Positions 4,702-44,336 of a DNA stretch of 46,195 nt are shown in pieces. A model generated the notes under the pieces. The model made no database searches and was not told the origin of the DNA. It worked only from the letters and a program-made list of their open reading frames with translations. Each line of letters opens with the position of its first letter. The first letter of the stretch is position 1. Location: the NCBI GenBank assembly GCA_013152895.1, contig JAADFN010000124.1, positions 1-46,195 on the forward strand. The letters run 5' to 3'. The DNA is from Acidobacteriota bacterium. GTDB taxonomy: Bacteria > Acidobacteriota > Thermoanaerobaculia > Thermoanaerobaculales > Sulfomarinibacteraceae. The translations under genes were made by a program, and so were the position numbers.

Positions 4702-4714
4702 GCACGTCTCCATT

Positions 4715-20292: not shown

Positions 20293-21246
20293 ATGCGGTT
20301 CGGTATTGTGGGTGCGGGTCCCGTAGGTTCCATCTTGGCCCTCCACCTCGTGGAAGCGGGGCAGGAAGTTTACCTGGTAGATACCTGGAAGGAACACCTC
20401 GAAGCCATTCTCAAGAACGGTATCGAGCTCGAAGGGTTCAGGCAAGGCCGCCAGAAAGTCACGGGAGGTTTCTCGAGCATCGCGGAGCTCGGCCCCGTTA
20501 AACCGGACTATCTCATACTCTCCGTCAAGGCCTGCGTGCTGAGAGCCATCCTCAAGGAAGTGGAAACGATCCTGGGCCCCGATACGGTAGTCATCAGCCT
20601 TCAAAACGGTTTGGACACGGAAGAGCTCATCGCCCACGGTTTCTCCGGAAACAGGATTTTCCGCGTCGTCGTGAACTACGCGGGGAACGTGACGGCGCCG
20701 GGAAAGGTGGCCATGAGCTTCTTCAATAAACCCAATCATATCGGATGCAACTGCAGGAAGGAAAACTGCGGTCACGCGGATGAACTGGCCAATATCCTGA
20801 ACGGCGTGTACTTGGATACCAAGCCCGAGAACGATATCAAGCGCTACGTCTGGGAAAAAACCATCCTGAACGCGTCGTTGAGCCCCGTTTCCGCGGTGAC
20901 CGGGTTCACCATGCGGGAGGTCATGGACTCCAGCGAAACCTACCGCATCGTGGAGATGCTTCTCAAGGAATGCATCATGGTGGCGGCGCGGGCGGGCTAC
21001 GACTTCGGGCCGGGATTCTTTAACTATTGCACGGCCTACCTTGACAAGGGCGGCCCCCACAAGCCGAGCATGCTCGTGGATATCGAGAACAAGCGGGAAA
21101 CGGAAATCGATTTCATCAACGGCCGCATCGCCTTCTACGGATCGCTCAACAACGTGCCGACTCCCGTCAATGACACCTTCACGCGCCTCGTGAAGGCGGT
21201 GGAGAACACCTACCTCCACCCGGAGAAGAAGCGGTCTGTGGCGTGA
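20293..21246 (+). CDS. Ketopantoate-reductase-like (ApbA/PanE family) dehydrogenase
   Basis: 317 residues. The N-terminal Rossmann motif GIVGAGPVGSILALHLVEAG binds NAD(P)H; the C-terminal helical domain is of the ApbA_C type. Family members reduce 2-keto acids such as ketopantoate. Here it is the first gene of an aromatic-degradation block with no pantothenate genes. It may instead oxidise or reduce a hydroxy/keto acid from the substrate; this is inference. A cysteine-rich insert GCNCRKENCGHA near residue 153 is unusual and could bind metal. ATG 20293 was chosen over GTG 20254 because GGGGGAGG lies just upstream and the Rossmann strand starts there. Base composition is visibly less GC-rich than its neighbours. 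Confidence 0.85.
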   Translation: MRFGIVGAGPVGSILALHLVEAGQEVYLVDTWKEHLEAILKNGIELEGFRQGRQKVTGGFSSIAELGPVKPDYLILSVKACVLRAILKEVETILGPDTVVISLQNGLDTEELIAHGFSGNRIFRVVVNYAGNVTAPGKVAMSFFNKPNHIGCNCRKENCGHADELANILNGVYLDTKPENDIKRYVWEKTILNASLSPVSAVTGFTMREVMDSSETYRIVEMLLKECIMVAARAGYDFGPGFFNYCTAYLDKGGPHKPSMLVDIENKRETEIDFINGRIAFYGSLNNVPTPVNDTFTRLVKAVENTYLHPEKKRSVA

Positions 21247-21338: not shown

Positions 21339-22604
21339 ATGGCTAGTGCACAGGGGTTTGTAGGACGGGAAGGCGGGTTCGGGGCCCGGTACGAGGGGAT
21401 CGTGATCGTGGGGGCCAAGCGTACGGCCTTCGGCGACTACATGGGGAGCCTGGCCAGGGTGTCGCCCACGGACATGGGTATCGTGGCCGCGAGGGCCGCC
21501 CTGGCTCAGAGCGGCCTCTCCGGTGAGGACGTGGACCAGGTGATCTTTGCCTCGGTGGCCCAGAGCGGGCCGGACGCCTTCTACCTTCCGAGACACGTGG
21601 GGCTCTACGCGGGCGTTCCCGTTTCGAGGCCGGCGCTTCTCGTGCAGCGGATATGCGGCAGCGGATTCGAGGCGATCATCGCCGGGGCGGAGCAAATCAG
21701 CCTGGGCAAGGCCCGGGTCGTGCTCTGCGGGGGGTGCGAAAGCATGACTCGAAACCCCATCGCTTCCTACGGCGCCAGGTTGGGCATGCCGATGGGCCGG
21801 CCCGACTTCGTCGATACGCTCACCGCCGAGCTGCTTGACCCCGCCAGCGACACGACCATGGGTCAGACGGCGGAAAACCTCGCCAAGAGGTACGGACTGG
21901 GGCGCGAAGAGGTGGATGCGGTTGCCCTCCGGAGCCAGCAGCGCGCGTGGGAGGCGGAGGAGAGCGGCAAGCTGTCGGAGGTTCGGACGCCCTTGCGCGC
22001 CGGGTTGTTGGAGGGAGAGGGTCTCCGTCCGCGCCGGATCAAGCTCCCCAGGGGCGTGGAGGTCTTCGATCGCGATGAGCACCCCCGGCGGACCTCCGCG
22101 GACAAGCTCGCCGCCCTGAAACCCGTCTTCGCCAAGGACGGCGTGCAGACGGCGGGAAACTCCTCGGGTATCGTGGACGGTGCGGCCGCCGTGGTCCTGT
22201 GCGACGAACGAACGGCACAGGAGCACAACCTCCGCCCGATGGCCAGGGTCCAGGCATCCGCCTCGATCGGCGTGGAGCCCTCGATCATGGGCATCGCCCC
22301 CGCGCCGGCCATCCGGCTGCTCCTGGAACACTGCTCCCTGAGCCTCGACGACCTGGACCTTGTGGAGGTCAACGAGGCGTTCGGCGCCCAGTACCTGGCG
22401 GTGGAGAGGGAGCTGGGGCTGGACCCGGCGAAGACGAACGTAAACGGCGGCGCCATCGCCCTCGGACATCCCCTGGCCGCCACGGGTACCCGGCTGGTGT
22501 CGTCCCTGATCTATGAGCTGGGGCGCAGGGGGCTGAAGCTGGGGATGGCCTCCGCGTGCATCGGAGGCGGTCAGGGCACCGCCGTCCTCCTGGAACGGGG
22601 GTGA
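21339..22604 (+). CDS. Thiolase (acetyl-CoA C-acyltransferase family)
   Basis: 421 residues with the complete thiolase catalytic set: nucleophile C106 (RICGSGF), H377 (GGAIALGHPLA) and C407 (ASACIGGGQG). It cleaves 3-ketoacyl-CoA with CoA to release acetyl-CoA, or runs the reverse condensation. It sits four bases before the hydroxyacyl-CoA dehydrogenase/hydratase fusion, so the two probably form one beta-oxidation module for the dicarboxylic acyl-CoA left after ring cleavage. AGGAGG precedes the ATG. An N-terminal extension of about 18 residues before the first strand is slightly longer than usual. A second thiolase lies at 30397, and their split of substrates is unknown. Confidence 0.95.
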   Translation: MASAQGFVGREGGFGARYEGIVIVGAKRTAFGDYMGSLARVSPTDMGIVAARAALAQSGLSGEDVDQVIFASVAQSGPDAFYLPRHVGLYAGVPVSRPALLVQRICGSGFEAIIAGAEQISLGKARVVLCGGCESMTRNPIASYGARLGMPMGRPDFVDTLTAELLDPASDTTMGQTAENLAKRYGLGREEVDAVALRSQQRAWEAEESGKLSEVRTPLRAGLLEGEGLRPRRIKLPRGVEVFDRDEHPRRTSADKLAALKPVFAKDGVQTAGNSSGIVDGAAAVVLCDERTAQEHNLRPMARVQASASIGVEPSIMGIAPAPAIRLLLEHCSLSLDDLDLVEVNEAFGAQYLAVERELGLDPAKTNVNGGAIALGHPLAATGTRLVSSLIYELGRRGLKLGMASACIGGGQGTAVLLERG

Positions 22605-22608
22605 GATC

Positions 22609-24630
22609 ATGACCGGGACGTACCCGAAGGTGGGAGTCGTTGGTGCGGGCACCATGGGCGGAGGCATCGCCCAGAAGCTGGCCATGTCCGGCTTCAACGT
22701 GGTTCTCTGCGACCTGGGGAATGCCCAACTGGAAAGGGGGCTGGCCAACATTCGCGCGATTCTGGACGAAGGCGTCGAGAGAAAGGCCCTGAGCCCGGAG
22801 AAGCGGGAGTCGACCCTGGGCCGGCTGGAGTGCACGACGGACCTCGGTCGCCTCTCGGGGTGCCGCCTGGTGATCGAGGCCGTCTTCGAAGATCTCGGGG
22901 TCAAGAAAGACCTCTTCGAAAAGCTCGAAACGGTGTGTGAACCGGGGGCCATCCTCGCAACCAATACCTCTTCTCTCCTGGTAGGCGATATCGCCTCCGA
23001 TCTGGCCCACCCCGAACGGGTGGTCGGCCTGCACTTCTTCTTCCACCCCGTGAAGAACCGGCTCGTGGAGGTGATTGCCGGGCCCCGGTCGGATCCCGAC
23101 CTCGTCGACCAGGCGTGGAGCCTCATGAGGGCCTCCGGCAAGACGCCCATCGCCTCGAAGGACGCGCCCGGGTTCTGTGTGAACCGGTACTTCGTGCCGT
23201 GGCTGAACGAGGCCGTTCGAATGGTGGACGAGGGGATGGCTTCCATCCCGGCCGTGGAGGCCGCGGCCAAGGAGCTCTTCAAGATCGGCATGGGTCCGTT
23301 CGAGCTCATGAACGTCACCGGGGTACCCATCGCGTACCACGCCGCCAGGAGCCTCGGCTTGGCCCTGGGCCCGTTCTACGAGCCCGCGGACGGCCTGAGG
23401 GCACGGGTGGAGGCCGGAGCTCCCTGGGATCTCTCCGGCGCCGTGACGGGGGCGCCGGCGGAGAAGATCGCCGACCGTCTGTTCGCCGTGGTCTGGGCGG
23501 TGGCGGGTCAGCTCCTCGACGAGGGGGTGGCCAGCCTCGAGGACGTGGACCGGGGCGCTCAGATCGGGCTTCGATGGAACCGGGGCCCCTTCCGGTGGAT
23601 GAACGCCAGGGGCGTGAAGGAGGCCGTGTCCCTCGTCGAGGCCTTCGCCGAAACGAATCCGGCACTGGCCGTTTCGCCCCGCCTCAGAAGCCAGGCGGCC
23701 GCGGGAGAGCCCTGGCGCTTCAGTCTCGTGGACGAGAAAGTGAAAGATGGTATCGCCCAGCTGATCATCAACCGTCCCGAAGCGCTCAACGCTCTCAACG
23801 ACGACGTGATCGACCAGCTCGAAGCCCTCTTCGACGGGGCCGCCGCGGACCCGTCAATTCGGGCCATCGTGCTGCGCGGCGCGGGCAAGACGTTCGTCGC
23901 AGGCGGGGACGTGCGGTTCTTCGTCCGGGCCATCCGGGATGGCGACATCAAGAGGATCGTCCGCTTCACCGCGAGAACACAGGCGTTCTTCCGTCGCATC
24001 GCGGCATGCCCCAAGCCGGTGACGGCCGTGCTGGAAGGCCTGGCGCTGGGTGGCGGCGCGGAGCTGGCCCTGACCGCCCATCGAGTCATCGCGACGTCGA
24101 ACGCCTCGATCGGCTTCCCCGAGACGGGCATCGGCATCTACCCGGGCCTGGGAGGGACCTTCAGGGCCACGCGACGCGCGGGCATCGAGCTGGCCCGGTA
24201 CCTCCTGCTCACCGGAAGAACCGTATCCGCCCGGCAGGCGTTCGACATGGGGCTCGTGGACGAGCTCGTCCCGGCGCTGGAGGTGGACCGCGCGATCGCC
24301 GAGATCGCACCCTTGCCCGTGGGTCCTCCCCCGGGCCCGAGGGAGGGGTTCGAAGAGCTCAGGGCGGCCTTCTCGGGTCACCCTCCCGCCGTGCTCGAAG
24401 AGGGGTTCCAGGGCTCGCCCGAAATGGAGGCGTTGCGGCGGACGATCCGGCGCAAGGCGCCCATCGCGGTTCGGGCCGCCCTGGACCTCCTGGATGCCAA
24501 TGCCAACGCTTCCGACGAAGAGGCCTACGCCAACGAGCTGGCGGGCATCGAATCCATCTTTGCCACGGAGGATGCCCTGACCGGGCTCACCTCCCTCGGA
24601 AGGGGCAGGCCGGTCTTCAAGGGAACGTAG
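22609..24630 (+). CDS. Fused 3-hydroxyacyl-CoA dehydrogenase / enoyl-CoA hydratase
   Basis: 673-residue bifunctional beta-oxidation enzyme. Residues 1-375 hold the NAD-binding domain (VGVVGAGTMGGGIAQ at 8-22) and hydroxyacyl-CoA dehydrogenase C-terminal domains with HFFFHPVKNRLVEVI. From about 378 to 673 is a crotonase domain with both catalytic glutamates, E485 (GGGAELAL) and E505 (FPETGIGI), 20 residues apart as in classical hydratases. The order is the reverse of FadB, where the hydratase is N-terminal. It would hydrate an enoyl-CoA and oxidise the 3-hydroxyacyl-CoA with NAD+. It starts four bases after the thiolase stop. Confidence 0.93.
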   Translation: MTGTYPKVGVVGAGTMGGGIAQKLAMSGFNVVLCDLGNAQLERGLANIRAILDEGVERKALSPEKRESTLGRLECTTDLGRLSGCRLVIEAVFEDLGVKKDLFEKLETVCEPGAILATNTSSLLVGDIASDLAHPERVVGLHFFFHPVKNRLVEVIAGPRSDPDLVDQAWSLMRASGKTPIASKDAPGFCVNRYFVPWLNEAVRMVDEGMASIPAVEAAAKELFKIGMGPFELMNVTGVPIAYHAARSLGLALGPFYEPADGLRARVEAGAPWDLSGAVTGAPAEKIADRLFAVVWAVAGQLLDEGVASLEDVDRGAQIGLRWNRGPFRWMNARGVKEAVSLVEAFAETNPALAVSPRLRSQAAAGEPWRFSLVDEKVKDGIAQLIINRPEALNALNDDVIDQLEALFDGAAADPSIRAIVLRGAGKTFVAGGDVRFFVRAIRDGDIKRIVRFTARTQAFFRRIAACPKPVTAVLEGLALGGGAELALTAHRVIATSNASIGFPETGIGIYPGLGGTFRATRRAGIELARYLLLTGRTVSARQAFDMGLVDELVPALEVDRAIAEIAPLPVGPPPGPREGFEELRAAFSGHPPAVLEEGFQGSPEMEALRRTIRRKAPIAVRAALDLLDANANASDEEAYANELAGIESIFATEDALTGLTSLGRGRPVFKGT

Positions 24631-24652: not shown

Positions 24653-25894
24653 ATGGCAAGACGGCCGGGGATCCGGCTTCGCGCCAAGGATCAGCTGACA
24701 GAGATCATGGCATCCTACTTCTCGGGCCTGGGGCAGGCCGACCGGGAGGGCAGGCCCGTGGCCTGGTGTACCAGCGTGGGTCCCGCCGAGCTCCTGAGGG
24801 CCATGGGCTTCGAGGTGTACTTCCCGGAAAACCACGGCGCCATGCTCGGCGCGACCCGAACGGCGGAACATGTCATGCCCCTGGCCCACTCCCAGGGCTT
24901 CTCGCCGGACATCTGCTCCTACCTGACGAGTGATATCGGCGCCTTTCTCGCGGGGATGACCCCCCTCACGAAATCCCACGGACTTGCCCACGTTCCCATG
25001 CCCGCAGTCCTGGTCTTCAATACGAACCAGTGCCGGGAGGTCAAGGACTGGTTCACGTGGTACGGCCGGAAGCTGGGTGTTCCCGTCCTCGGCATCCATT
25101 CTCCCCGGGGCCTGGATGCGATCGACGCCGAGCTCGTGGCATACGTCGCCGGCCAGCTCCGCGTTCTCAAGGATGACCTCGCCCCCATCGCTCCGGTTCC
25201 CTTCCATCTCCAGGCCCTGCAGAGGACCATGGCTCTCAGCAAGCAAGCCAGCGTGCTCTGGCGGGAGTGCCTGGAAACGACCGCGGCCTCTCCCGCCCCC
25301 TGGACCTTCTTCGACCACACGATCCACATGGCGCCCATCGTGGTATTGAGGGGAACCGAAACGGCGGTGAGTTACTACAGGAGTCTGCTCGAGGAGCTCC
25401 GGGCTCTCGCTTCCACGGGACAGGGAGCGGTGCCCGGCGAGAGGTTCCGGATCTACTGGGAGGGGATGCCCATCTGGGGTCGCCTGCGTGCGCTCTCGGA
25501 GCTCTTTTCAGAGCGCGGTGTGGCCCTCGTGGCTTCCACCTACTGCAATTCGTGGATCCTGGAGGGCCAGGACCCTCAGGACCCGTGGACCAGCATGGCG
25601 GAGACCTATCTCTCCATTTTCATCTGCCGCTCGGAAGCGTTCAAACAGGCCTACATCATCGAGAAAGCACGGGAGCTCACGGCAGGGGGGTTCGTTTTTC
25701 ACGACTCCAAGACCTGTCCCCACAACACGAACTCGCGCTTCGGCATGCCCCAGAGGATTTGCAAGGCCACGGGCCTCCCGGTCCTGGTCCTCGAAGGGGA
25801 CCTGAACGATCCCAGGTGCTTTTCCCTGGAGGAGGCCCGGGTTCGCATCGAGGTTCTCCTGGAGCAGATGGAAGAACAGGAAGGCGCGCCGTGA
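24653..25894 (+). CDS. BcrB/HgdB-like 2-hydroxyacyl-CoA dehydratase/benzoyl-CoA reductase family protein (second system)
   Basis: 413 residues of the BcrC/BadD/HgdB family, whose members hold an iron-sulfur cluster that receives low-potential electrons from an ATP-driven activator. C39 (AWCTS), C88 (DICSYL) and C355 (DSKTCPHN) are the likely cluster ligands; six other cysteines are present. It resembles the BcrB of this window (40788-42077) in length and in segments such as RGTE...YYRSL and VALVASTY. It is encoded singly with one activator, as in E. coli YjiM/YjiL or double-cubane-cluster proteins, rather than as two unequal subunits. It may be a reductase or dehydratase for a related aromatic or hydroxyacyl-CoA. 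GGGGAGG before ATG 24653 sets the start. The next gene overlaps its stop. Confidence 0.88.
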   Translation: MARRPGIRLRAKDQLTEIMASYFSGLGQADREGRPVAWCTSVGPAELLRAMGFEVYFPENHGAMLGATRTAEHVMPLAHSQGFSPDICSYLTSDIGAFLAGMTPLTKSHGLAHVPMPAVLVFNTNQCREVKDWFTWYGRKLGVPVLGIHSPRGLDAIDAELVAYVAGQLRVLKDDLAPIAPVPFHLQALQRTMALSKQASVLWRECLETTAASPAPWTFFDHTIHMAPIVVLRGTETAVSYYRSLLEELRALASTGQGAVPGERFRIYWEGMPIWGRLRALSELFSERGVALVASTYCNSWILEGQDPQDPWTSMAETYLSIFICRSEAFKQAYIIEKARELTAGGFVFHDSKTCPHNTNSRFGMPQRICKATGLPVLVLEGDLNDPRCFSLEEARVRIEVLLEQMEEQEGAP

Positions 25895-26683
25895 CGGTGG
25901 CGTGCTACGGGGGAGTGGACGTGGGGAGCGCCTACACCAAGGCCGTTGTGACCAGCGGCAGGGGCGAGGTGCTGGCTTTCGCCGTTCTTCCGACGGGCTT
26001 GGACATGGGTGGTGCGGGCACCCGGGCCCTCGCGGAGGCTTGTGAGAAGGCGGGCATCACGGTGCAGGAGCTCCACGGCCTCGTGAGCACGGGCTACGGC
26101 AGGGACGATGTGGCCGAAAGCGACTGGACCCGAAGCGAGATCCTCTGCCTTACCAAGGGAGCGTTCGCGCTGATGGGACGCGCCATGACGGTGGTGGATA
26201 TCGGGGGGCAGGACAGCAAGATCGTCTTTCTGGACGAGCGGGGCGCCCGTACGGACTACAGGATGAACCGGAAGTGCGCGGCGGGTACGGGTGCTTTCCT
26301 GGAGATCATCGCCATGCGGCTTGGAGTGCCGTTGAACGAGCTGTGCGAGCTTGCCGAACGGACCGAGGAATGGGCGCCGCTCGGTTCTTTCTGCTCGGTC
26401 TTTGCGGCCACGGAGGTGCTGGATCTCCTGCGCCGGGGCTACGGCCTGGAGGCCATCGCCCGGGGGGTCTACCGTTCCGTGGCCCATGATCGACATGGGT
26501 GCGAGAGGTCCCATTTTGGCCATGGCTGGCGGCGTGGTCGAGCACCATTCCGTCTTGGTGGAGGTCGTTCGGGAGATGATACAGTGTGAAGTGGTGAAGC
26601 TTCCTCACCCTCAGTACGCCGTTGCACTGGGCGCGGCCGTCTTGGCGAAGGAAAAGGAATCCGCCAGGACGATCGAGTCTTGA
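25891..26683 (+). pseudogene. BcrD/HgdC-like activator ATPase of the second system, split by a frameshift
   Basis: ASKHA-fold ATPase that would reduce the preceding protein at the cost of ATP. GGVDVGSAYTKAVV is the phosphate-1 motif and VDIGGQDSK the phosphate-2 motif. The bridging [4Fe-4S] cysteines C129 (KCAAGTG) and C168 (GSFCSVF) are 39 apart, the same spacing as in BcrA and BcrD here. The frame is normal from GTG 25891, which overlaps the previous stop as GTGA, to about 26480 (GVYRSVAH). The rest (IDMGARGPILAMAGGV to the end at 26683) is one frame over. Restoring the frame gives a normal protein of about 263 residues. I see no slippery site. It is either an assembly indel or an inactivating mutation. 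Confidence 0.85.
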
Positions 26684-26702: not shown

Positions 26703-28466
26703 ATGAAGGGGACGTACTTAAATGCCAGGCTCCCCCTGGGGAAGGTGGAGTCCACCATCGGCTCCATGCTCAAGAGGAGGGCGTCGAGGTACCGTCGAAG
26801 AATCGTCTTCAAGGAGAGGAAGGTCGACGGAGAGTACTCCGGCTTGCGGTGGATAAGTTTCTACGCCCGCATCCGGAGCGTTGGATCATCCCTCCTTGCC
26901 AGGGGAATCCGCAAGGGGGACAGGGTTGCGGTCTACTCGCCCAACAACGAAGAGATGCTCATCTGGGAGCTGGCCATCATGAGCATCGGGGCCATCTCGG
27001 TTCCCATCTTCTCCGGGTACTACCCCCCCCAGCTGGATTACATCCTGGACCACAGCGAAGCCAGGACGATCCTGGTCGGCGGGAACGAGCAACTGGAGCG
27101 CCTGCTCAGCACGGACTACCAACCGAACCTGGATCACATCTTCGTCATCTATCCCCCTGAAAAGGGCGTGGAAGACCCGAGGTTGTCGCCCTTCGATGAC
27201 CTGCTGAATTCGCCCGACGCCACCGCGTTTGAGAGGGCCGTCGCCGGGGTGAGGGCGAAGGACCCCTGCCTCACCATGTACACCTCCGGTACCACGGGCG
27301 TCCCGAAGGGAGTGGTCCTCGCCCACAGCAACATCCTCTCCCAGCAAAAGGCCCTGGAGGTTCTCTGGGATGTAGGCCCGGGAGACGTCTTTCTTTCTTA
27401 CCTGCCATGGCACCACTCGTTCGGGGGGCTCTTCGAGCGGTTCACGGCCCTGGCCTCGGGCGCCACTCTCTGCATCGACGACGGGCACGGCAAGGACTTG
27501 GCCCGTCTCATCCAGAACTGGAAAGAGATCAAGCCTACACTCTTCTTCAGCGTTCCAAAGGTTTTCCAAGCCTTGGTGACCGAGGCGCGTCTCGACTCGG
27601 AGGCGGACCTGGCTATCTTTCACCCGAAATTGAGGTTCGTCTTCACCGCGGCCGCCCCGCTCCCCGCAGACTGCTCCGACTACTTTGCCAAGAAGGGGAT
27701 CCCCGTGCTGGAGGGTTGGGGGCTCACGGAGACCTCCCCGTGCGTGACGCTCACGTCACCCGACATGGAGCGGGTCCCCTCCATCGTGGGGTTGCCTATT
27801 CCCGGCGTGGAGATCCTGGTGGCAGAAGACCGGGAAATCCTCGTGCGTGGACCCAACGTGATGAAGGGGTACTACAAGGATGCGGAACGGACACGGCAAG
27901 CCCTGGATGACTTCGGGTGGTTCCACACTGGAGATCTTGGCGAGATCACGCCCCTGGGACTGAGGATCATCTGCCGCGTGGACGGTCTGTTCAAGCTCAA
28001 CAACGGGGAGAAGGTCTCGTCCATGCAGGTGGAAAACAACCTGACGGCCACCAGCCGGTTCATCGAGCAGGCGGTCGCCGTGGGCAAGGGCCGGGATTTC
28101 ATCGCCACCCTCCTCTTCCCCAACATGCGGAATCTCGCCTCGTGGAGCAAGCAGCATGGGTGGGAGGGCCGAACCGACGGAGATTTCTTCCGCCGGCCCG
28201 AGGTCCGGGATCTCTTTCGCAAGGAGGTGGAAGAACGGAATGCGAGCGTTGGAGCTCGCTATCTCCGGGTGAAGGCGTTCAGCATCCTGCCCCGGGAGCT
28301 CTCCCTGGAGAACGGTGAGCTCACTCCCTCGATGAAGGTCGTCCGGCGCAGGGTTTTGGAGCAGCACAGGGGGATCATCAAGGCGATCTACCAGGAAAAC
28401 GGTTACGATACGGCGCTCGAGGAGGACATCGTGAGACTCTCCGTGGGAGAAGCGTCCGAAACCTGA
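26703..28466 (+). CDS. AMP-forming acyl/aryl-CoA ligase
   Basis: 587-residue adenylate-forming enzyme making an acyl- or aryl-CoA from the acid, ATP and CoA, the entry step of the pathway. The ATP-binding motif YTSGTTGVPKG is at 193-203, with GWGLTETSP, the GWFHTGDLGEI hinge and the C-terminal lysine K545 (TPSMKVVRR). Overall length and the KLNNGEKVSS segment are closer to long-chain acyl-CoA synthetases than to the 520-530-residue benzoate-CoA ligases, so the true substrate is uncertain. By context it should activate the aromatic acid degraded by this block. ATG 26703 follows GGAGG. Confidence 0.92.
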   Translation: MKGTYLNARLPLGKVESTIGSMLKRRASRYRRRIVFKERKVDGEYSGLRWISFYARIRSVGSSLLARGIRKGDRVAVYSPNNEEMLIWELAIMSIGAISVPIFSGYYPPQLDYILDHSEARTILVGGNEQLERLLSTDYQPNLDHIFVIYPPEKGVEDPRLSPFDDLLNSPDATAFERAVAGVRAKDPCLTMYTSGTTGVPKGVVLAHSNILSQQKALEVLWDVGPGDVFLSYLPWHHSFGGLFERFTALASGATLCIDDGHGKDLARLIQNWKEIKPTLFFSVPKVFQALVTEARLDSEADLAIFHPKLRFVFTAAAPLPADCSDYFAKKGIPVLEGWGLTETSPCVTLTSPDMERVPSIVGLPIPGVEILVAEDREILVRGPNVMKGYYKDAERTRQALDDFGWFHTGDLGEITPLGLRIICRVDGLFKLNNGEKVSSMQVENNLTATSRFIEQAVAVGKGRDFIATLLFPNMRNLASWSKQHGWEGRTDGDFFRRPEVRDLFRKEVEERNASVGARYLRVKAFSILPRELSLENGELTPSMKVVRRRVLEQHRGIIKAIYQENGYDTALEEDIVRLSVGEASET

Positions 28467-28511: not shown

Positions 28512-28570
28512 GCGACACGGGGAAACGCGCTCGAAGCGTGATCCCGTCAAGAGAAATGGAGGTAGTTGGA

Positions 28571-29614
28571 ATGGCCATGTTTGAATCGCGACCGGCGGAA
28601 AGTTTTGGCTTCCAGGAAGTGGGGTACGAGAAGAAGGATTTCGTGGCCAGGATTACGATCCGCAGGCCGCATAATTACAACGCATACTCCACGCCCGCCC
28701 TCAAGGAGCTGGCGACCGCCTTCACCGACGCGTCCGAAGACGACCGTGTGGCCGTCGTCGTATTCACGGGGGAGGGCGACCGGGCCTTCTGCACCGGCGG
28801 AGACGTGAAGGAGTACGAGCGTGAGTACACCTCCAGGCCCAGGGATTACTGGAAGTACATGGGCCTGTTCAAGGCGTACATCGAGAGCATCATGAACAAC
28901 GGGAAACCCACCATCGCGAGGATCAACGGTATGGCCGTGGGCGGTGGCAACGAGTCGCTCATGGCCTGTGACCTCGCGGTGATGGCCGAGCACGCCATCA
29001 TCAGCCAGGTGGGAACCAGCGTGGGGTCGGTGGCGTGCGGCGGAGGGACCCAGTGGCTCCCCCTCCTCGTTGGGGACAAGCGTGCACGGGAGATCCTCTT
29101 CTTAAACGAGCGGATCTCGGCGGCAAAGGCGCTCGAATGGGGGCTCGTGAACTGGGTCGTTCCCTCCGTCACCAAGGACGGTGAGTTCATCGAGGGAGCC
29201 TCCCAGGAACAGATCGCCCTCGCCCGCAAGGGCGCCGACGGATACGCCATTGACCTGACCATGCTGGACAAAAAGGTGGACGCTATCTGTGCCAAGATCA
29301 TCGACAAGTTCCCGGAGTGCGTCAGGTATACCAAGCAGCAGGTGAACTTCTGGAAGGACCTGGCATGGCACAACACGATCGGTCACGCCCGTGACTGGCT
29401 CTCCATCCACTACTGCTCGTGGGAGCCCATCGAAGGCATGGGCGCCTTCGTGGAGAAGCGCAAGCCAAGCTACCGGATGCTGAGAGAGCGGGCGGCCGAG
29501 GGGAAATCGAGCGAGTTTCCCTGGGGCGCTCCCAAGGCCTCCTGTCCCTCCTGCGGCGCCAAGAACCTGCCCGAGGATTTCACCTACTGCGGCGCCTGCG
29601 GAGCGAAGCGATGA
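28571..29614 (+). CDS. oah: 6-oxocyclohex-1-ene-1-carbonyl-CoA hydrolase (ring-cleaving) with C-terminal zinc ribbon
   Basis: 347-residue crotonase-family enzyme that hydrates and cleaves 6-oxocyclohex-1-ene-1-carbonyl-CoA to 3-hydroxypimelyl-CoA, opening the ring. The stretch INGMAVGGGNESLMACDL, then GTSVGSVACGGGTQWLP and LEWGLVNWVVP, is the signature used to recognise Oah/BamA. After residue 315 the chain continues into C325-x2-C328...C340-x2-C343, a zinc-ribbon knuckle pair. I do not know this addition from the characterised enzymes. ATG 28571 was chosen because GGAGGT lies seven bases upstream. The stop overlaps the next start as ATGA, coupling it to the SDR. Confidence 0.93.
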   Translation: MAMFESRPAESFGFQEVGYEKKDFVARITIRRPHNYNAYSTPALKELATAFTDASEDDRVAVVVFTGEGDRAFCTGGDVKEYEREYTSRPRDYWKYMGLFKAYIESIMNNGKPTIARINGMAVGGGNESLMACDLAVMAEHAIISQVGTSVGSVACGGGTQWLPLLVGDKRAREILFLNERISAAKALEWGLVNWVVPSVTKDGEFIEGASQEQIALARKGADGYAIDLTMLDKKVDAICAKIIDKFPECVRYTKQQVNFWKDLAWHNTIGHARDWLSIHYCSWEPIEGMGAFVEKRKPSYRMLRERAAEGKSSEFPWGAPKASCPSCGAKNLPEDFTYCGACGAKR

Positions 29615-30360
29615 GCCGGCTCCTGGAGGGGAAGAAAGCTCTCATCACCGGCGGCAGCTCGGGCATCGGCCGGGCCACTGTAGAGGTCATGGCCAGGGAG
29701 GGCGCCTCGGTGGTCTTCACCTTCAGACACAACCAGAGCGGGGCGGATGCCGTCCTCGCCGGTCTCCGGGACCTCGGTGGAACCGGGTTGGCCATCCAGG
29801 CGGACGTGGCCGATTCCGGCAGGGCGCAGGCCGTGGTTGATGAAGCCATCGAGGCCATGGGCGGGCTGGACATTCTCGTGAACAACGCGGGGACGAACCG
29901 GGACGCCGTCGTCTGGAAGATGACCGAGGAGGCGTGGGACGAGGTCATCGCCGCTGACCTGAAGGGCGTGTTCAACTACGTCCGTGCGGCCGTCCCCCTC
30001 TTTCGCAAGCAGAAACATGGCAAGATCGTGACGGTGGCCTCCATCAACGGCCTCAGGGGCAAGTTTGGTCAGGCAAATTACTCCGCAGCCAAGGCCGGCG
30101 TCATCGGGTTCTCCAAGAGCGTCGCCCGCGAGCTTGGCCGGTCGAACGTCAACGTCAACGTGGTGTGTCCGGGAATCATCGGCACCGAAATGGTCAGGAA
30201 GATGCCCGAAGAGGCCCTCCAGAAGTCCATCTCGGAAGTGATCCTCGGACGGCTCGGCGAGCCGGAGGACGTGGCGGAGCTCATCACCTTCCTCGCGAGC
30301 GATCGGGCGCGGCACATCACGGGCGAAGTCATCAAGGTCGACGGTGGGCAGTACATCTGA
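29611..30360 (+). CDS. SDR-family 3-hydroxyacyl-CoA dehydrogenase / 3-oxoacyl reductase (FabG-like)
   Basis: 249-residue short-chain dehydrogenase. The nucleotide motif is TGGSSGIGRA, with the structural NNAG motif (ILVNNAGTN), and the catalytic Ser in VTVASINGLRG plus Tyr/Lys in NYSAAKAG. It has classical length and a C-terminal VDGGQYI. In this block it may oxidise 3-hydroxypimelyl-CoA after Oah cleaves the ring, or serve as an alternative to the zinc dehydrogenase. A FabG role in lipid synthesis is less likely given its translational coupling to oah. Confidence 0.92.
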   Translation: MSRLLEGKKALITGGSSGIGRATVEVMAREGASVVFTFRHNQSGADAVLAGLRDLGGTGLAIQADVADSGRAQAVVDEAIEAMGGLDILVNNAGTNRDAVVWKMTEEAWDEVIAADLKGVFNYVRAAVPLFRKQKHGKIVTVASINGLRGKFGQANYSAAKAGVIGFSKSVARELGRSNVNVNVVCPGIIGTEMVRKMPEEALQKSISEVILGRLGEPEDVAELITFLASDRARHITGEVIKVDGGQYI

Positions 30361-30396: not shown

Positions 30397-31599
30397 ATGA
30401 CCGTTCATGAGCTTAGTAAAGACGTGGTGGCGGTGGGCGCGGTGCGCACGCCCATGGGCCGCTTCGGGGGGAGCCTCAAGAACGTGGCTGCCTTCGATCT
30501 CGGGGCCGGTGCGATCAGGGCGGTCCTCGACCGGGCCGGGATCGAGGGAAGGGACGTGGACGACGTCATCTTCGGGTCGTGCCGCCAGGCTGGCAACGGC
30601 CCCAACCCCGCTCGAACAGCCGCGGTGCGAGGCGGCATTGCGCTTTCGGTGCCCGTCGTCACGGTCAACATGGCGTGCCCCTCGGGTATGCGGTGTGCTG
30701 CCCTGGCGGCCCAGGCCATTCGCCTGGGCGAGGCTTCGGTTGTCGTGGCCGGTGGCATGGACAGCATGAGCACGATCCCGTACCTGCTGAAGGATGCGCG
30801 GTGGGAGGGGTTCAAGATGGGAGACAAGGCGCTGCTGGATGGATGGTCCGACAGCATCGACCCCCTCATAGGCCAGGGCATGGGACAAACGGCCGAAAAC
30901 CTTGCGGAGAAGCACGGCATCTCCAGAGAGGACCAGGATGAATTCGCCGCCGCGTCTCACATGAAAGCGGCGGCCGCGTGGGATGCGGGGGCGTTCGCGG
31001 AAGAGGTTGTGCCGGTTACCGTGCCGGCGCGCCGGAGGGAGCCGGAGATGGTCTTCGATCGGGACGAGACCATCCGGCGCGAGGTGGACCGGGCCAAGAT
31101 GGCCAAGCTCAGACCGGTTTTCAGGAAGGAGGGAACCGTCACCGCGGGAAACGCGTGCAGCATGTCCGACGGAGCGGCGGCCCTCGTCCTGACCTCCCGG
31201 GAAGAAGCCGGCCGCCGGGGGCTCACCCCGCTCTTCTCCATCGTGTCCTACGCGCAAACGGCCGTGAGCCCGGAAACCATGGGGGAAGGACCCGCCGAGG
31301 TCATTCCCCTCGCCTTGAATCGGGCGGGCATGAGCCTGGGGGACATGGACCTCATCGAGGTGAACGAGGCGTTCGCCGTGCAGGTCCTGGCCAACGGCCG
31401 GGTGCTCGGATGGGACTGGGACCGTCTCAACGTCCACGGCGGCGCCATCGCCCTGGGTCATCCAACGGGTATGAGCGGCGCCCGGATCCTGGTCACCCTG
31501 CAAAACGCCCTGCGGGTCAGGGATAAAGAGCTGGGCGTTGCGGCCATCTGCGGCGGCGGCGGCGTCACCACGGCCATGGTCATCCGCCGGGAATCCTGA
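30397..31599 (+). CDS. Thiolase (acetyl-CoA C-acyltransferase family)
   Basis: 400 residues. The nucleophile Cys is in NMACPSGMRC near residue 91, the His in GGAIALGHPTGMSG and the second Cys in AAICGGGGV. It should cleave a 3-ketoacyl-CoA, presumably 3-oxopimelyl-CoA to glutaryl-CoA plus acetyl-CoA, given the neighbours. It differs clearly from the thiolase at 21339 and looks closer to acetyl-CoA acetyltransferases. A strong GGAGG lies just before the ATG. The 36-base gap to the SDR gene implies one transcript. Confidence 0.94.
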   Translation: MTVHELSKDVVAVGAVRTPMGRFGGSLKNVAAFDLGAGAIRAVLDRAGIEGRDVDDVIFGSCRQAGNGPNPARTAAVRGGIALSVPVVTVNMACPSGMRCAALAAQAIRLGEASVVVAGGMDSMSTIPYLLKDARWEGFKMGDKALLDGWSDSIDPLIGQGMGQTAENLAEKHGISREDQDEFAAASHMKAAAAWDAGAFAEEVVPVTVPARRREPEMVFDRDETIRREVDRAKMAKLRPVFRKEGTVTAGNACSMSDGAAALVLTSREEAGRRGLTPLFSIVSYAQTAVSPETMGEGPAEVIPLALNRAGMSLGDMDLIEVNEAFAVQVLANGRVLGWDWDRLNVHGGAIALGHPTGMSGARILVTLQNALRVRDKELGVAAICGGGGVTTAMVIRRES

Positions 31600-31667: not shown

Positions 31668-32438
31668 ATGTCGGAATACGAATTTGTCCGCACGGAGGCC
31701 AGCGACGGGCTCTTGGAGATCACCATGGCCCGGCCACCGTTGAACATCCTGAACGCGCCCATGATGGCGGAGCTCACGGGCGCCTTCGAAGCCGCCGAGA
31801 GGGACCGGGATGCCAGGGTTCTTCTCCTGCGGGCGGAGGGGAAAGTCTTCTCGGCCGGGGCGGATATCGACGAGCACCGTCCCGGCAAGGCAAAGGCCAT
31901 GATCGAAGCCTTTCACGGCATGTTCCGCGCGCTTCACCGCGTCCCCTATCCGACCGTGGCCTACGTCCACGGCGCTGCACTCGGCGGGGGATGCGAGCTG
32001 GCCATGGGGTTCGACATGGTCCTCGCCGGCGAACGGGCCAAGTTCGGTCAACCGGAGATCGGGCTCGGGTTCCTGCCGCCGGTTGCCGCGGCCCTTCTTC
32101 CAGCCATCTCGGGCTGGAGCAGGGCCATGGACCTGTGTTGCTCGGGCAGGCCGTGGACGGCCCGGGAGGCGCTGGCGAACGGCCTGGCGCTCAGGGTATT
32201 CTCCGGCGAAGACGCAGAAGAAAGCCTGAAGGCGTTCCTGGCGCCGTTCCTCAAACGCAGCCCGCTGATCCTGAGGCTCGTAAAGAAGGCCATGCGGGGA
32301 GAAGGAGACGGCGGGTTTTCTTCCCGCCTCGACGCCGCCGAGCGTGTCTTTCTCGAGGAGCTCATGGTCACCAAGGACGTGCTGGAGGGGCTCTCCGCCT
32401 TCGATGAAAAGCGTGATCCCGACTGGAAGAACGAATAA
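31668..32438 (+). CDS. dch: Cyclohexa-1,5-diene-1-carbonyl-CoA hydratase
   Basis: 256-residue crotonase-family hydratase that adds water to the cyclic dienoyl-CoA made by benzoyl-CoA reductase, giving 6-hydroxycyclohex-1-ene-1-carbonyl-CoA. E110 (GGGCELAM) and E130 (GQPEIGLGFLPP) are the catalytic-site glutamates, 20 residues apart. The combination of ADIDEHRPGKAK, a following MIEAFHGMFRALH helix and FLPPVAAALLP is what I associate with Dch rather than general enoyl-CoA hydratases. It lies five bases before the molybdenum-enzyme maturation genes. Gene-family identity is strong; the exact substrate rests on context. Confidence 0.88.
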   Translation: MSEYEFVRTEASDGLLEITMARPPLNILNAPMMAELTGAFEAAERDRDARVLLLRAEGKVFSAGADIDEHRPGKAKAMIEAFHGMFRALHRVPYPTVAYVHGAALGGGCELAMGFDMVLAGERAKFGQPEIGLGFLPPVAAALLPAISGWSRAMDLCCSGRPWTAREALANGLALRVFSGEDAEESLKAFLAPFLKRSPLILRLVKKAMRGEGDGGFSSRLDAAERVFLEELMVTKDVLEGLSAFDEKRDPDWKNE

Positions 32439-32443
32439 CCACC

Positions 32444-33840: not shown

Positions 33841-33852
33841 GCCGATTCACCC

Positions 33853-34692: not shown

Positions 34693-34764
34693 CAACATCG
34701 CTCCACGCCGTTCAGGCCGCGTGACGGGCCGGGGTGTGAGGGCCATGACTTGCGGAGGATAACG

Positions 34765-35802
34765 ATGAAAGCGGCAGTATTTCACGGATCGGGACGACCC
34801 CTGACCATCGAAGAGATTCCCACTCCGGAGGTGGGACCCGGGGAGATCCTCCTGAAGGTGGCTGCCTGCGGGGTATGCCACACGGACCTCCACTACATCG
34901 ACCACGGCGTGCCGACGGTCAAGGCCCCACCCATGGTCCTGGGGCACGAGCCCTCCGGTATCGTCGCGGCGGTCGGTCCCGGCGTGACCTCCTTCAAGGA
35001 GGGGGACAGGGCTCTCCTCCCCGCCGTCTATTCCTGCGGCGTGTGCAGGGCGTGCCGGGAGGGCCGGGAGAACATCTGCGCCTCCATGGTGATGTTCGGT
35101 AACCACGTGGACGGCGCCTACGCGGAATACGTGAAGGCCCCCGCCAAGGATACCTTTCACCTCCCCGACGAGATTCCGCTCGAGGAAGGATCCATCATCG
35201 CAGACGCAACCTCCACCCCGTTTCACGCGGTGGTCAACCGGGCAAAGGTGCGTCCCGGCCAGTCGGTGGTGGTTTTCGGGTGCGGTGGCGTGGGCATCAA
35301 CGCGGTGCAGATCGCGGCCGCCGTCGGCGGCGCGGTCATCGCCGTGGACCCCGTCCCCGAGAAGCTCGCCCTGGCCAAACGTCTCGGGGCGGTGGCAACG
35401 TTGAACCCCACCGAGGTGGAGAACGTTCCCAAGGCCATCCGAAAGCTCACCGGAGGCGGGGCCGAGATCGCCATCGAGGCGATCGGGAAACCGGCCGTGA
35501 TGAGCCAGGCCTTCAACAGCCTGGTGACGGGCGGCCGCCTGGTGGTTATCGGGTACAGCCCGGACATGCTCACCATCAAGGCCGGCAAGATCATGTTCCA
35601 GGAGCTGGAGATCATCGGTTCCCTGGGGTGCCGGCCGGTGGATTACCCCCGCCTCATCGAAATGGTCCGCCAGGGGAAGATCAAGGTGAAAGAGCTGGTT
35701 ACCGGGCGCTTCCCCCTCGAACAGATCAACGAGGCCTTCGACCTCCTCAGGGAAGGCCGGCCGGACGTGGTGCGCTCCATCATCGTGCCGGCCATGGGCT
35801 AG
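34765..35802 (+). CDS. had: Zinc-dependent alcohol dehydrogenase, probable 6-hydroxycyclohex-1-ene-1-carbonyl-CoA dehydrogenase
   Basis: 345-residue medium-chain dehydrogenase. Catalytic zinc ligands lie in CGVCHTD and LGHEPSG; the structural zinc site is [15 protein letters not shown]; the NAD-binding motif is [13 protein letters not shown]. The segment [19 protein letters not shown] and the following [11 protein letters not shown] resemble Had of Thauera, which oxidises the hydroxy group made by Dch with NAD+. It lies between the Mo maturation genes and the Mo enzyme, so a role with that enzyme's product is an alternative. ATG 34765 was chosen for the GGAGG six bases upstream. The specific substrate is inferred. 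Confidence 0.72.
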
Positions 35803-35812
35803 GGAGATATCG

Positions 35813-36706
35813 ATGGGACTGCCCCAGCTCACCGTTGAGGTTCCCCGTACCTTGGGCGAGGCCCTCGCTCTCTTGCGAGAACGGGGTGAGGGGACCATGC
35901 CCATGGCCGGGGGAACCGACCTCGTGGTGCAACTGAAGCAGGGGACGAAACGCCCGCGGACGATCGTGTGCCTGTCCAAGGTTGCCGAGCTTGCCGGTGT
36001 GCGCGAGACGGAGGATGGATCCATCGCCGTTGGCGGCGGAACCACCATCGCCGCCCTGGAATCCGACACCCTTCTCCTGGAAAGGGCGCCGGGGGTCGTG
36101 GACGCCGCCCGGGGCATGGCCACCGTGCAGGTTCGCAACCGGGCCACCGTGGCCGGCAACCTGGCGACCGCCGCGGCCTGCGCCGACCTCCCACCCATCC
36201 TGACCGCGCTGGGCGGAGTCGTTTCGGTGGCCTCCTCCGGGGGCTCGCGCCGCGTGGCCGTGGAGCGATTCTTCACCGGCGCAAGGACAACGGTCCTCGC
36301 GCCCGGGGAGCTCATCATCGAGGTGATTCTCCCGCCGCGCCAAGCGGGGTCGGGCTCCGCGTACGAGAAACTCGGCTACCGGCGGGGGGCGCAGGTTGCG
36401 GTGGCTTCCGCGGCCGCGAGCCTCGTGCTGGAGGACGGCATCGTCCGCGAGTTGAAGCTCGTGCTGGGCGCCGTGGCGCCCATCCCCCTCGTGGTGCGGG
36501 GGGCGTCGGCACTGGTGGGGCATCCCCCGGAAGGTGACACGCTCGAAGCGGCCTGCTCGGCGGCCGCCCGGGAGTGTCATCCCATCTCCGACATCCGTGG
36601 GAGCGAGGCCTACCGGCGGGCGGTGGTGGCCGTGGCTTCCCGCAGGGCTATCCTGAGGGCGGTTCGCAGGGCGGCGACGGGGACGTCGATGGGAGGCCGC
36701 CCATGA
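35813..36706 (+). CDS. Molybdenum hydroxylase FAD-binding subunit
   Basis: 297-residue FAD subunit of the xanthine-dehydrogenase family, passing electrons between the iron-sulfur clusters and an external carrier. FAD signatures are AGGTDL (32-37) and TVAGNLATAAACADLPP (around 112-128), with the CO_deh_flav_C domain after about 180. In 4-hydroxybenzoyl-CoA reductase this subunit has an insertion holding a four-cysteine [4Fe-4S] cluster beginning near residue 122. Here C123 is present but no insertion or other cysteines follow. The protein thus has the plain hydroxylase form. Its stop overlaps the start of the large subunit (ATGA). Confidence 0.93.
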   Translation: MGLPQLTVEVPRTLGEALALLRERGEGTMPMAGGTDLVVQLKQGTKRPRTIVCLSKVAELAGVRETEDGSIAVGGGTTIAALESDTLLLERAPGVVDAARGMATVQVRNRATVAGNLATAAACADLPPILTALGGVVSVASSGGSRRVAVERFFTGARTTVLAPGELIIEVILPPRQAGSGSAYEKLGYRRGAQVAVASAAASLVLEDGIVRELKLVLGAVAPIPLVVRGASALVGHPPEGDTLEAACSAAARECHPISDIRGSEAYRRAVVAVASRRAILRAVRRAATGTSMGGRP

Positions 36707-39613: not shown

Positions 39614-40777
39614 ATGAAGCACCAGCGTTTGGATGCCCTGGCCAGGGCGGACAGGGTGCTCAACGACCTGTCCTACGGGTACGTGCAGGATTGGTTGGGA
39701 CGAGGGGCCGACAGGCACGCCGTGGGGTACCTGCCCATCTATGCTCCGAGGGAGATCATCGCCGCCGCCGGGATGATCCCGGTGGGTGTATTCGGCGCGG
39801 GTGACGCTCTGGACATCGTGAAGGGCGATGCGTATTTCCAGTCCTACATCTGCCACATCCCCAGAAGCGTCATCGAAATGGCCCTGGACGGGCGGTTCGC
39901 CACCTTCTCAGCGTTCATCTTTCCCGCCATCTGCGACGTGATTCGGAACCTCTCGGGGATGTGGCAGATGAACTTCCCGGACCAGTACGTCAAGTACCTG
40001 GACTATCCCCAGAACTTCGATCCCGAGGTGGGTGGGCGCTTCTACCGCCGGGAGCTGGAAGACTTGCTGGAGAACCTGGTGCGCATCAGCGGGAGGGAGG
40101 TCAGCGATGCGGAGCTGCACGCCGCCACCGCGCGATATAACGAGAATCGGCGCCTGCTGGACCGCCTCTACGATGCGCGCTCCCGAGCCCCCCACAACTT
40201 CCCCATGTCCGAAGTGTACAGGGTGGTTCGAGCCGGTTCCGTCCTCACCGTGGATGACCACAATCGTCTCATCCTGGATTACCTGGCCGCCGCCGAAGCC
40301 GAGCCCCTTCCAGACCAGGATCGCATCCGCGTCTACCTCGTGGGCGCCTTCTGCGAGCAACCGCCCTTGGGGCTCCTGAAAACCCTTGAACAGGCCGGGT
40401 GCGCCCTGGTCGGTGACGACCTTCTCCTGGGCATGCGCTTCATCCGGGGCGACGTTGCCACCGAGGGGGATCCCCTGGATGCGCTCGTTGCGGCCTACCT
40501 CACCAAGTGCGGGTGGTCTTCGGCGGTGTACGACGGGGACAACCCCCGGGAAGACAAGCTGGTGGAAGACGTCCGGGCCTGCAAGGCGGATGGTGTGATC
40601 TTCTGCTGCCCGAGCTTCTGTGACCCGGCCCTCTTGGACAGGCCCATGCTGCAAAAACGCCTGGATGAGGAGCGTGTGCCGTACGCCAGCTTCCAGTACT
40701 CCGAGAACACGGGGCAGTTCCAGGTGATCCGCGAGCAGGCCGGGACCTTTTCCGACTCCATTAAACTCTGGGAATGA
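39614..40777 (+). CDS. bcrC: Class I benzoyl-CoA reductase subunit C
   Basis: 387 residues, the length of Thauera BcrC. With BcrB it forms the catalytic half that takes two electrons into benzoyl-CoA to give cyclohexa-1,5-diene-1-carbonyl-CoA. Recognisable segments are YLPIYAPREIIAAAGMIPVG, GDAYFQSYICHIPRS and FPAICDVIRNLSGMW. C80, C107 and C336 (with C331/C332 beside it) are the likely iron-sulfur ligands. It is the first of four genes in the order C-B-A-D, 82 bases after the Mo enzyme. That gap has a locally AT-rich patch (GGGGGATTATATG) but no clear promoter. Confidence 0.96.
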   Translation: MKHQRLDALARADRVLNDLSYGYVQDWLGRGADRHAVGYLPIYAPREIIAAAGMIPVGVFGAGDALDIVKGDAYFQSYICHIPRSVIEMALDGRFATFSAFIFPAICDVIRNLSGMWQMNFPDQYVKYLDYPQNFDPEVGGRFYRRELEDLLENLVRISGREVSDAELHAATARYNENRRLLDRLYDARSRAPHNFPMSEVYRVVRAGSVLTVDDHNRLILDYLAAAEAEPLPDQDRIRVYLVGAFCEQPPLGLLKTLEQAGCALVGDDLLLGMRFIRGDVATEGDPLDALVAAYLTKCGWSSAVYDGDNPREDKLVEDVRACKADGVIFCCPSFCDPALLDRPMLQKRLDEERVPYASFQYSENTGQFQVIREQAGTFSDSIKLWE

Positions 40778-43491: not shown

Positions 43492-44336
43492 ACCGGACCG
43501 ATGTGTACACCATGGGCGTGGACGTGGGTGCCAGCTCCGTGAAGACCGTGCTCATGAGCTACGGGTCCGGAGAGCACCCGGAGATTCTCTTCAAGGACTG
43601 CCGCAGGATGCGCCGGCGGAACCCCTCGGTCGTCGCTGACGAAAGCATGGAGGACGCCCTCTCCGTGGCGGGCCTCGAGCTCAAGGACATCGCCTACGTG
43701 GCGAGCACGGGCGAGGGGGAGATGGTGAAGCGCAAGCGGGGCCACTTCTACAGCATGACGACCCATGCCAAGGGGGCAGCCTTCCTGGTACCGGCGGCGA
43801 GGGCGGTCCTGGACCTGGGCGCCCTGCACGCGCGGGCGATGAAGATCAACGACGAGGCCCGGGTCCTGTCCTACCGGATGACGGGCCAGTGTGCTTCCGG
43901 CTCGGGGCAGTTCATCGAGAACATCACCCGGTACCTGGGCGTGAGCCTCAGCGAGGTCGGGGCCCTGTCCCTCCAGTCTGATCACCCCGAACGGGCGTCC
44001 TCCATCTGCGCCGTGCTGGCCGAAACGGACGTGATCAACATGGTGTCCCGGGGAGTCTCGACGCCCGACATCATCCGCGGTATCCACGAGTCCATCGCGC
44101 AGCGGTTGGTCAAGCTGCTCTCGGCCCTCAAGGCCGATTCACCCCTGGTGCTCACGGGTGGGCTGTCCCGTGACGCGGGAATGGTCGAGGTGATCCGAAG
44201 AAAGGTTGCGGAGGACGACCTTGGCTTGACGGTTCTCACCCACCCGGACGCCATCTATGCGGGCGCCCTGGGCGCCGCCCTCTGGGCCGGCTGGCGGCAC
44301 TTCAAGCTCCAGGAGAAAGCGTCCGCCGCGTCCTGA
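43488..44336 (+). CDS. bcrD: Class I benzoyl-CoA reductase ATPase subunit D
   Basis: 282 residues, the same length as I recall for Thauera BcrD. Motifs: MGVDVGASSVKTVLM, then AVLDLGALHARAMK at the second phosphate site. The cluster cysteines C135 (QCASGSG) and C174 (SSICAVL) are 39 apart. The second phosphate motif reads DLGALHAR where most activators have DIGGQDxK, as is common in BcrD. The ATG overlaps the bcrA stop (ATGA). It is the last gene of the plus-strand block, with only 14 bases to the convergent small winged-helix gene. Confidence 0.96.
   Translation: MNRTDVYTMGVDVGASSVKTVLMSYGSGEHPEILFKDCRRMRRRNPSVVADESMEDALSVAGLELKDIAYVASTGEGEMVKRKRGHFYSMTTHAKGAAFLVPAARAVLDLGALHARAMKINDEARVLSYRMTGQCASGSGQFIENITRYLGVSLSEVGALSLQSDHPERASSICAVLAETDVINMVSRGVSTPDIIRGIHESIAQRLVKLLSALKADSPLVLTGGLSRDAGMVEVIRRKVAEDDLGLTVLTHPDAIYAGALGAALWAGWRHFKLQEKASAAS

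Follow-up and report, generated by a model that had tools for sequence, protein, structure and literature searches.

The HGD-D protein encoded at 24653..25894 of the window (hereafter HGDD; the window is the whole 46,195-nucleotide stretch of DNA analysed) belongs to a branch of the radical 2-hydroxyacyl-CoA dehydratases that appears not to have been described before. We consider it reasonably probable that HGDD is a dehydratase of the HadB lineage acting without a HadC-type subunit, probably as a homodimer, that the small ATPase encoded directly behind it is its activator, and that its likeliest substrate is an aryl-lactyl-CoA. A sequence-only reading of this DNA had related the protein to BcrB and to the YjiM/double-cubane proteins; tree, profiles and fold all place it beside HadB instead. 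That reading had also offered dehydration of a 2-hydroxyacyl-CoA as one possible activity, and this option is supported both by the HadB-side descent and by the 2-hydroxyacid genes in the neighbourhood. What the analysis observed is the descent, the predicted fold, the conserved residues, the gene neighbourhoods and the break in the activator frame; the cluster type, the homodimer, the reaction with its direction and the substrate are inferred from these.

The locus and its activator, interrupted in the assembly

The window corresponds to a single contig, C124, in a draft genome of 2.99 Mb, which is 96.9% complete and consists of 221 contigs. The whole genome holds 3 HGD-D genes and 3 activators, all of them within the window. 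The genes around the pair are the following:

20293..21246, + strand: PanE/ApbA-type dehydrogenase, candidate 2-oxoacid to (R)-2-hydroxyacid reductase (PF02558, PF08546; TIGR00745 177 bits, cut-off 141; frame open from 20254)
21339..22604, + strand: thiolase 1 (PF00108/PF02803; BktB-like, yet under BktB-type cut-offs)
22609..24630, + strand: 3-hydroxyacyl-CoA dehydrogenase/enoyl-CoA hydratase fusion (3HCDH_N, 3HCDH, ECH_1)
24653..25894, + strand: HGDD, predicted catalytic subunit of a 2-hydroxyacyl-CoA dehydratase (PF06050; 413 aa; alternative start 24647)
25891..26589, + strand: activator ATPase, 5' part, frame 1 (PF01869/TIGR00241 over aa 9-200)
26486..26683, + strand: activator C-terminal part, in a frame that differs from the start (PF01869 profile positions 218-271, this frame only)
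26703..28466, + strand: AMP-forming acyl-CoA ligase, candidate 2-hydroxyacid or aryl-acid CoA ligase (PF00501)
28538..29614, + strand: divergent Oah-like ring hydrolase with C-terminal zinc ribbon (TIGR03200 220.8 bits, cut-off 464; PF13240/PF24463)
29419..30360, + strand: short-chain dehydrogenase (PF13561/PF00106 from aa 72; ORF limits given, start probably ~29600)
30397..31599, + strand: thiolase 2 (PF00108/PF02803)
31668..32438, + strand: enoyl-CoA hydratase, candidate dienoyl-CoA hydratase (PF00378)
34750..35802, + strand: zinc alcohol dehydrogenase, candidate 6-hydroxycyclohexenecarbonyl-CoA dehydrogenase (PF08240/PF00107)
35813..36706, + strand: FAD subunit of a molybdenum hydroxylase, candidate 4-hydroxybenzoyl-CoA reductase (PF00941/PF03450)
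36703..39531, + strand: fused [2Fe-2S]-MoCo subunit of the molybdenum hydroxylase (PF00111, PF01799, PF01315, PF02738, PF20256)
39614..40777, + strand: bcrC (TIGR02263 463 bits, above the cut-off of 421)
40788..42077, + strand: bcrB (TIGR02260 652 bits, above the cut-off of 487)
42097..43491, + strand: bcrA (TIGR02259 486 bits, below the cut-off of 578)
43488..44336, + strand: bcrD (TIGR02261 330 bits, above the cut-off of 313)

As the sequence-only reading had stated, a one-component HGD-D protein with an activator of its own sits in an aromatic block, 13 kb before true bcrCBAD (12.9 kb from the activator end at 26683 to bcrC at 39614). Both members of the pair were recovered by profiles (PF06050 for the first; PF01869 and TIGR00241 for the second), but the activator is frame-broken as assembled, which the sequence-only reading had missed.

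Other genes of the window were also recorded. XdhC and probable molybdenum-cofactor genes lie at 32344-34692, just upstream of the hydroxybenzoyl-CoA-reductase-like enzyme, and divergent Oah-like forms resembling the product of 28538-29614 were seen in loci L004, L019, L038 and L039. About 20 kb upstream of the pair, the minus strand encodes an Oxidored_FMN plus Pyr_redox protein of enoate-reductase architecture (225-2138) and a class III CoA-transferase (3571-4713), the same kinds of protein as FldZ and FldA; a pyruvate:ferredoxin oxidoreductase-like protein of 1409 aa (POR_N, POR, EKR, Fer4) is encoded on the same strand at 9928-14157.

The activator starts with a GTG at 25891, overlapping the HGDD stop, and it is not a single open frame, as frame 1 stops at 26589 with its last ~35 aa being missense. 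The 5' part matches PF01869 (127 bits over aa 9-200) and TIGR00241 (160 bits, cut-off 125.4), the latter over the first 192 model positions only, the C-terminus being out of frame. Alignment with 12 relatives put the break near 26490: the conserved C-terminal end (GGVVEHH...ALGAAV) is found in a different frame at 26486-26683, and the stretch between identical flanking codons has five bases fewer in the window than in the nearest relative, L004. Among the relatives the activator is an intact ORF of at least 256 aa in 35 of 38; of the other three, L030 is cut by a contig end, L032 has a short N-terminus and L040 is broken. In L040 the activator ORF runs for just 55 aa and the N-terminus is missing from the HGDD match, possibly because of sequencing errors in that record.

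Programmed frameshifting in the window's activator is unlikely: a protein made by such a shift would be two residues short, one of them a nearly invariant Arg kept by the relatives, and the break therefore looks like a lesion or an assembly error. In this genome, then, the pair could be a decaying remnant with a truly disrupted activator and an inactive system, an explanation compatible with the dehydratase reading of the family and one to which we give serious weight, if slightly less than an even chance. The break itself, the five missing bases, the two lost residues and the absence of the family from the single same-genus genome examined all speak for it. On the other side, HGDD is intact with every conserved residue present, as are the genes around it; small errors can occur in a draft assembly of 221 contigs; and BcrA or BcrD might substitute for the activator. 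As the activator is interrupted in the assembly, the activity of the pair in this genome is uncertain, and our functional statement therefore rests mainly on the family and not on the window copy.

Relatives, gene neighbourhoods and subunits

Relatives of HGDD numbered 41 in one genome scan, with identities of 47-67%, and came from Desulfarculaceae, Desulfobacterales, Lokiarchaeota, Planctomycetota, Spirochaetia, a WOR-3 bacterium and further groups. Within the window's own phylum, a high-scoring member (at least 570 bits) was present in 21 of 297 genomes, and the lack of the family in the same-genus genome fits horizontal gain or loss. An activator gene lies within 10 kb of the family gene in nearly all loci. 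We also noted a Desulfonema limicola MAG (FI88; G060, L024) with 26 HGD-D genes in a 3.7 Mb genome. Separately, a Bzd-type benzoyl-CoA reductase was seen in Asgard archaea, BzdO scoring above cut-off in several Lokiarchaeota genomes with the family (G054, G056-G059, G065, G066 and G076, the genomes of L018, L020-L023, L029, L030 and L040).

A marker of the benzoyl-CoA pathway was found in 32 of the 43 carrier genomes (BcrB in 8, BzdO in 15, otherwise Oah in 9), and in the phylum sample Oah occurred in 8/21 carriers vs 20/276 other genomes (Fisher p = 2e-4). The search for the same pair beside bcr genes elsewhere, proposed along with the first reading, was positive: pair and class I reductase share a contig, ~2-21 kb apart, in 13 genomes counting the window's. 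The L106 block begins with the molybdenum hydroxylase and continues with bcrCBAD, ligase, HGDD, PanE, activator, had, oah, dch, short-chain dehydrogenase and then thiolase. L109 resembles the window in having PanE, HGDD, activator, ligase, short-chain dehydrogenase, thiolase and the fused dehydrogenase/hydratase.

We also looked at genes that could handle 2-hydroxy acids. In 18 of 43 genomes a PanE gene is located no more than ~10 kb from the family gene, against 0.44 expected on the basis of copy number and genome size. As related genomes are among the carriers, the neighbour counts are not fully independent; with the PanE cases counted as only 9 for kinship, the chance is still ~3e-10. Most loci have a ligase close to HGDD, either of the AMP-forming type of 26703..28466 or of the C2 type. 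In several genomes the pair is followed by proteins resembling ADP-forming acyl-CoA ligases, and 8 loci encode GlcD-type FAD dehydrogenase domains. L028 reads HGDD, activator, ligase, class III CoA-transferase, symporter and lactate racemase family protein (LarA), and L110 has a class III CoA-transferase and, besides, a weak LarA match. In L005 we found IorA above cut-off, IorB, a PaaK-like ligase and a GlcD-GlcF fusion; in L037/L118 an aminotransferase adjoins the pair and an EPSP synthase is nearby. These neighbour genes are parts of a predicted route from 2-oxo acid over 2-hydroxy acid and 2-hydroxyacyl-CoA to enoyl-CoA.

The neighbours of HGDD vary among lineages, and genes for aryl-pyruvates are seen in few loci only; that PanE-like enzymes also act on other acids is a point against the aryl-lactate reading. 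HGDD could be a single-subunit dehydratase for a non-aromatic (branched- or short-chain) 2-hydroxyacyl-CoA, its aromatic neighbours being incidental. We regard this as unlikely: it would suit the 11 of 43 carriers that have no ring-reduction marker, the L028 locus with LarA, CoA-transferase and symporter and no ring genes nearby, and the activity of the closest relative, HadB, on 2-hydroxyisocaproyl-CoA, but it leaves aside the markers in the 32 other carriers, the position of the pair inside the ring cluster in L106, L109, L038 and L039, and the IorAB and PaaK-like genes of L005.

Characterised 2-hydroxyacyl-CoA dehydratases are alpha-beta heterodimers (PMC11574389). HadBC follows this plan; HGDD differs in that no HadC-like gene adjoins it in the loci examined. 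Moreover, only one HGD-D gene exists in G038, a genome of 94% completeness and 1% contamination; this gene is of the HGDD family and stands in the order PanE, HGDD, activator, ligase. No second subunit therefore seems to be required, and a homodimer is probably the simplest reading of these gene sets. As no HadC-type subunit was found, we do not claim HGDD as a HadBC-type heterodimeric enzyme. BcrC was considered as a partner and is not needed, since G038 lacks it. Within the open-access literature we found no report of a one-subunit dehydratase or of a PanE-HGD-D fusion.

Such fusions, in which a PanE domain is joined to a second HGD-D domain of the HGDD family, were found in three genomes (G124, G260 and G081; Pfam was run on L105), in each case close to an intact HGDD or adjoining it:

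L105:6818-9085, - strand: PanE-HGD-D fusion (G124)
L107:2548-4821, + strand: PanE-HGD-D fusion (G260)
L114:8302-10587, - strand: PanE-HGD-D fusion (G081)

The second HGD-D copy of G313 is likely the same fusion, judged by reading-frame length. In the fused HGD-D domain C88, C127, C298 and S41 are lost in 3/3 cases and C355 in 2/3, while PENH is kept, which suggests a putative cluster-free partner, possibly forming a heterodimer in that lineage. In G081 the fusion directly adjoins an intact HGDD and activator, and this arrangement of a fusion beside an intact HGDD supports consecutive steps.

Descent, fold and conserved residues

HGDD is a member of the HGD-D superfamily (PF06050, 191 bits vs a curated cut-off of 28.4). 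Against more specific profiles it scored 191.4 bits for HadB (NF052455), 104 for BcrB (TIGR02260), 48 for BzdO and 31 for the double-cubane proteins (NF040772), reaching neither the HadB equivalog cut-off of 750 bits nor those of BcrB (486.55 bits) and double-cubane (350 bits). In a FastTree phylogeny of 100 HGD-D proteins the HGDD family, represented by 40 tips, was monophyletic (support 0.86), and its sister was HadB with two HadB-like proteins (support 1.0), not BcrB; this HadB side consists of only three sequences, FldB, HgdB and LcdB are absent from the tree, and PDB alignments supplied the sequences of HadB and MbdO.

The AlphaFold2 model of HGDD (pLDDT 92.7) found its best Foldseek match in HadB (3o3m_A; TM 0.91/0.95, rmsd 1.7 A), ahead of MbdO (TM 0.88/0.83), BzdO and DCCP (TM 0.78/0.77). 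A check of the cluster ligands on a predicted structure had been suggested by the first reading; by alignment, the cluster cysteines are kept. Counted over 49 family members, C39, C88, C127 and C355 are invariant, C298 occurs in 47, E59 in 49 and S41 in 48. The ligands proposed before, C39, C88 and C355, do lie where they had been placed; the invariant ligand position C127 had been overlooked. C88, C127 and C355 align with HadB C84, C117 and C346, and S41 and E59 with HadB Ser37 and Glu55, two HadB residues that matter in catalysis. The same three cysteines fall at the positions of three BzdO cluster cysteines named in PMC11971306.

HGDD thus resembles HadBC/HadI (PDB 3o3m, 4eht) in fold, at 28% identity, in its three cluster cysteines, in the family of its activator and in the adjacent genes for a 2-hydroxyacid dehydrogenase and CoA activation. 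HadB, however, has Ser35 and Pro291 where HGDD has C39 and C298. Because C298 has no counterpart in HadB, the cluster of HGDD, whose geometry rests on alignment and secondary structure, may differ from that of HadB.

The other activity put forward by the first reading, ATP-dependent reduction of a substituted benzoyl-CoA, found no support, and we consider it very improbable. HGDD does share superfamily, activator family and an MbdO-like fold with BcrBC, MbdNO and BzdNO, and recurs with them in bcr clusters, but it is sister to HadB and not to BcrB, scores 104 vs 487 bits for TIGR02260, has no adjoining BcrC/BzdN-type double-cubane partner and stands alone in G038. Its TSV motif is as in HadB, the aligned Glu lies in PENH/PENQ, common to the HGDD family and HadB-like proteins, where BcrB has PEI, and its PanE, GlcD and CoA-ligase neighbours are persistent. 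A BcrB-like reductase was rejected on the grounds of tree, profile scores and motifs.

Still less credit goes to a double-cubane-cluster reductase like DCCP (6eno) or YjiM. These proteins, too, combine a single gene type with an activator; in the alignment C298 falls on a double-cubane distal ligand, C39 adjoins another such position and the window's HGDD has C325 at the sixth; against this, the sixth position is Cys in just 5 of 49 members, NF040772 gives 31 vs 350 bits, and the separation in the tree is deep. YjiM/double-cubane descent was rejected on the grounds of profile and tree.

Proposed reaction and its meaning

By analogy with HadBC, the activator would hydrolyse ATP and pass one electron to a [4Fe-4S] cluster on C88, C127 and C355, whose open iron would bind the 2-hydroxyacyl-CoA to give a ketyl radical; hydroxide would then depart, the beta proton would be lost and the electron would go back to the cluster, leaving a 2-enoyl-CoA. 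In the dehydratase reading that we favour, the PanE-type dehydrogenase would convert a 2-oxo acid to the (R)-2-hydroxy acid, the ligase would make its CoA ester, HGDD would dehydrate the ester, and the hydratase/dehydrogenase fusion with a thiolase would shorten the enoyl-CoA product. Phenyllactyl-CoA or 4-hydroxyphenyllactyl-CoA would in this way yield cinnamoyl- or coumaroyl-CoA and finally (4-hydroxy)benzoyl-CoA; these two substrates are the likeliest because the aromatic block has 4-hydroxybenzoyl-CoA reductase-like and benzoyl-CoA reductase genes. The pair probably feeds 2-hydroxy acids such as aryl-lactates toward benzoyl-CoA. Least probable of all we rank reductive removal of the alpha-hydroxyl (e.g. 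mandelyl-CoA to arylacetyl-CoA) in place of dehydration, to which the same radical start would apply and for which the known PanE-related D-mandelate dehydrogenases could be counted, since no phenylglyoxylate dehydrogenase genes were recognised beside the pair and the adjoining beta-oxidation genes (hydratase/dehydrogenase fusion, thiolase) suit an enoyl-CoA product.

In its proposed reaction and substrate class HGDD would be like FldBC/FldI, the phenyllactyl-CoA dehydratase of Clostridium sporogenes, and some HGDD loci also contain a CoA-transferase, a dehydrogenase and an aminotransferase. FldBC, however, has two subunits and serves reductive fermentation, whereas the HGDD product would be oxidised to benzoyl-CoA. 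A 2026 study of the benzene-degrading strain BzS1 proposed a phenyllactyl-CoA dehydratase step with the enzyme unassigned, thus placing an alpha-dehydration of this kind in anaerobic benzene degradation, and mentioned a lone gene 30% identical to FldB (PMC13416013). All parts may also be joined into one bolder picture, doubtful as a whole: HGDD would represent a novel kind of radical dehydratase, namely a homodimer that may have a non-standard cluster via C39 and C298, paired in some lineages with the PanE-fused cluster-free HGD-D, and it would make cinnamoyl-CoA in an oxidative route from aryl-lactate to benzoyl-CoA.

If the dehydratase reading is right, a coherent and apparently undescribed branch of the radical dehydratases would connect the benzoyl-CoA pathway with 2-hydroxy acids, which likely stem from aromatic amino acids, and this link would span sulfate reducers, planctomycetes and Lokiarchaeota. 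The PanE fusions to cluster-free HGD-D would be an example, open to testing, of a dehydrogenase tethered to its downstream enzyme, and the two-subunit plan of radical dehydratases would not be obligatory. Moreover, HGDD would provide a candidate family for the phenyllactyl-CoA dehydratase left unassigned in the 2026 benzene study (PMC13416013).
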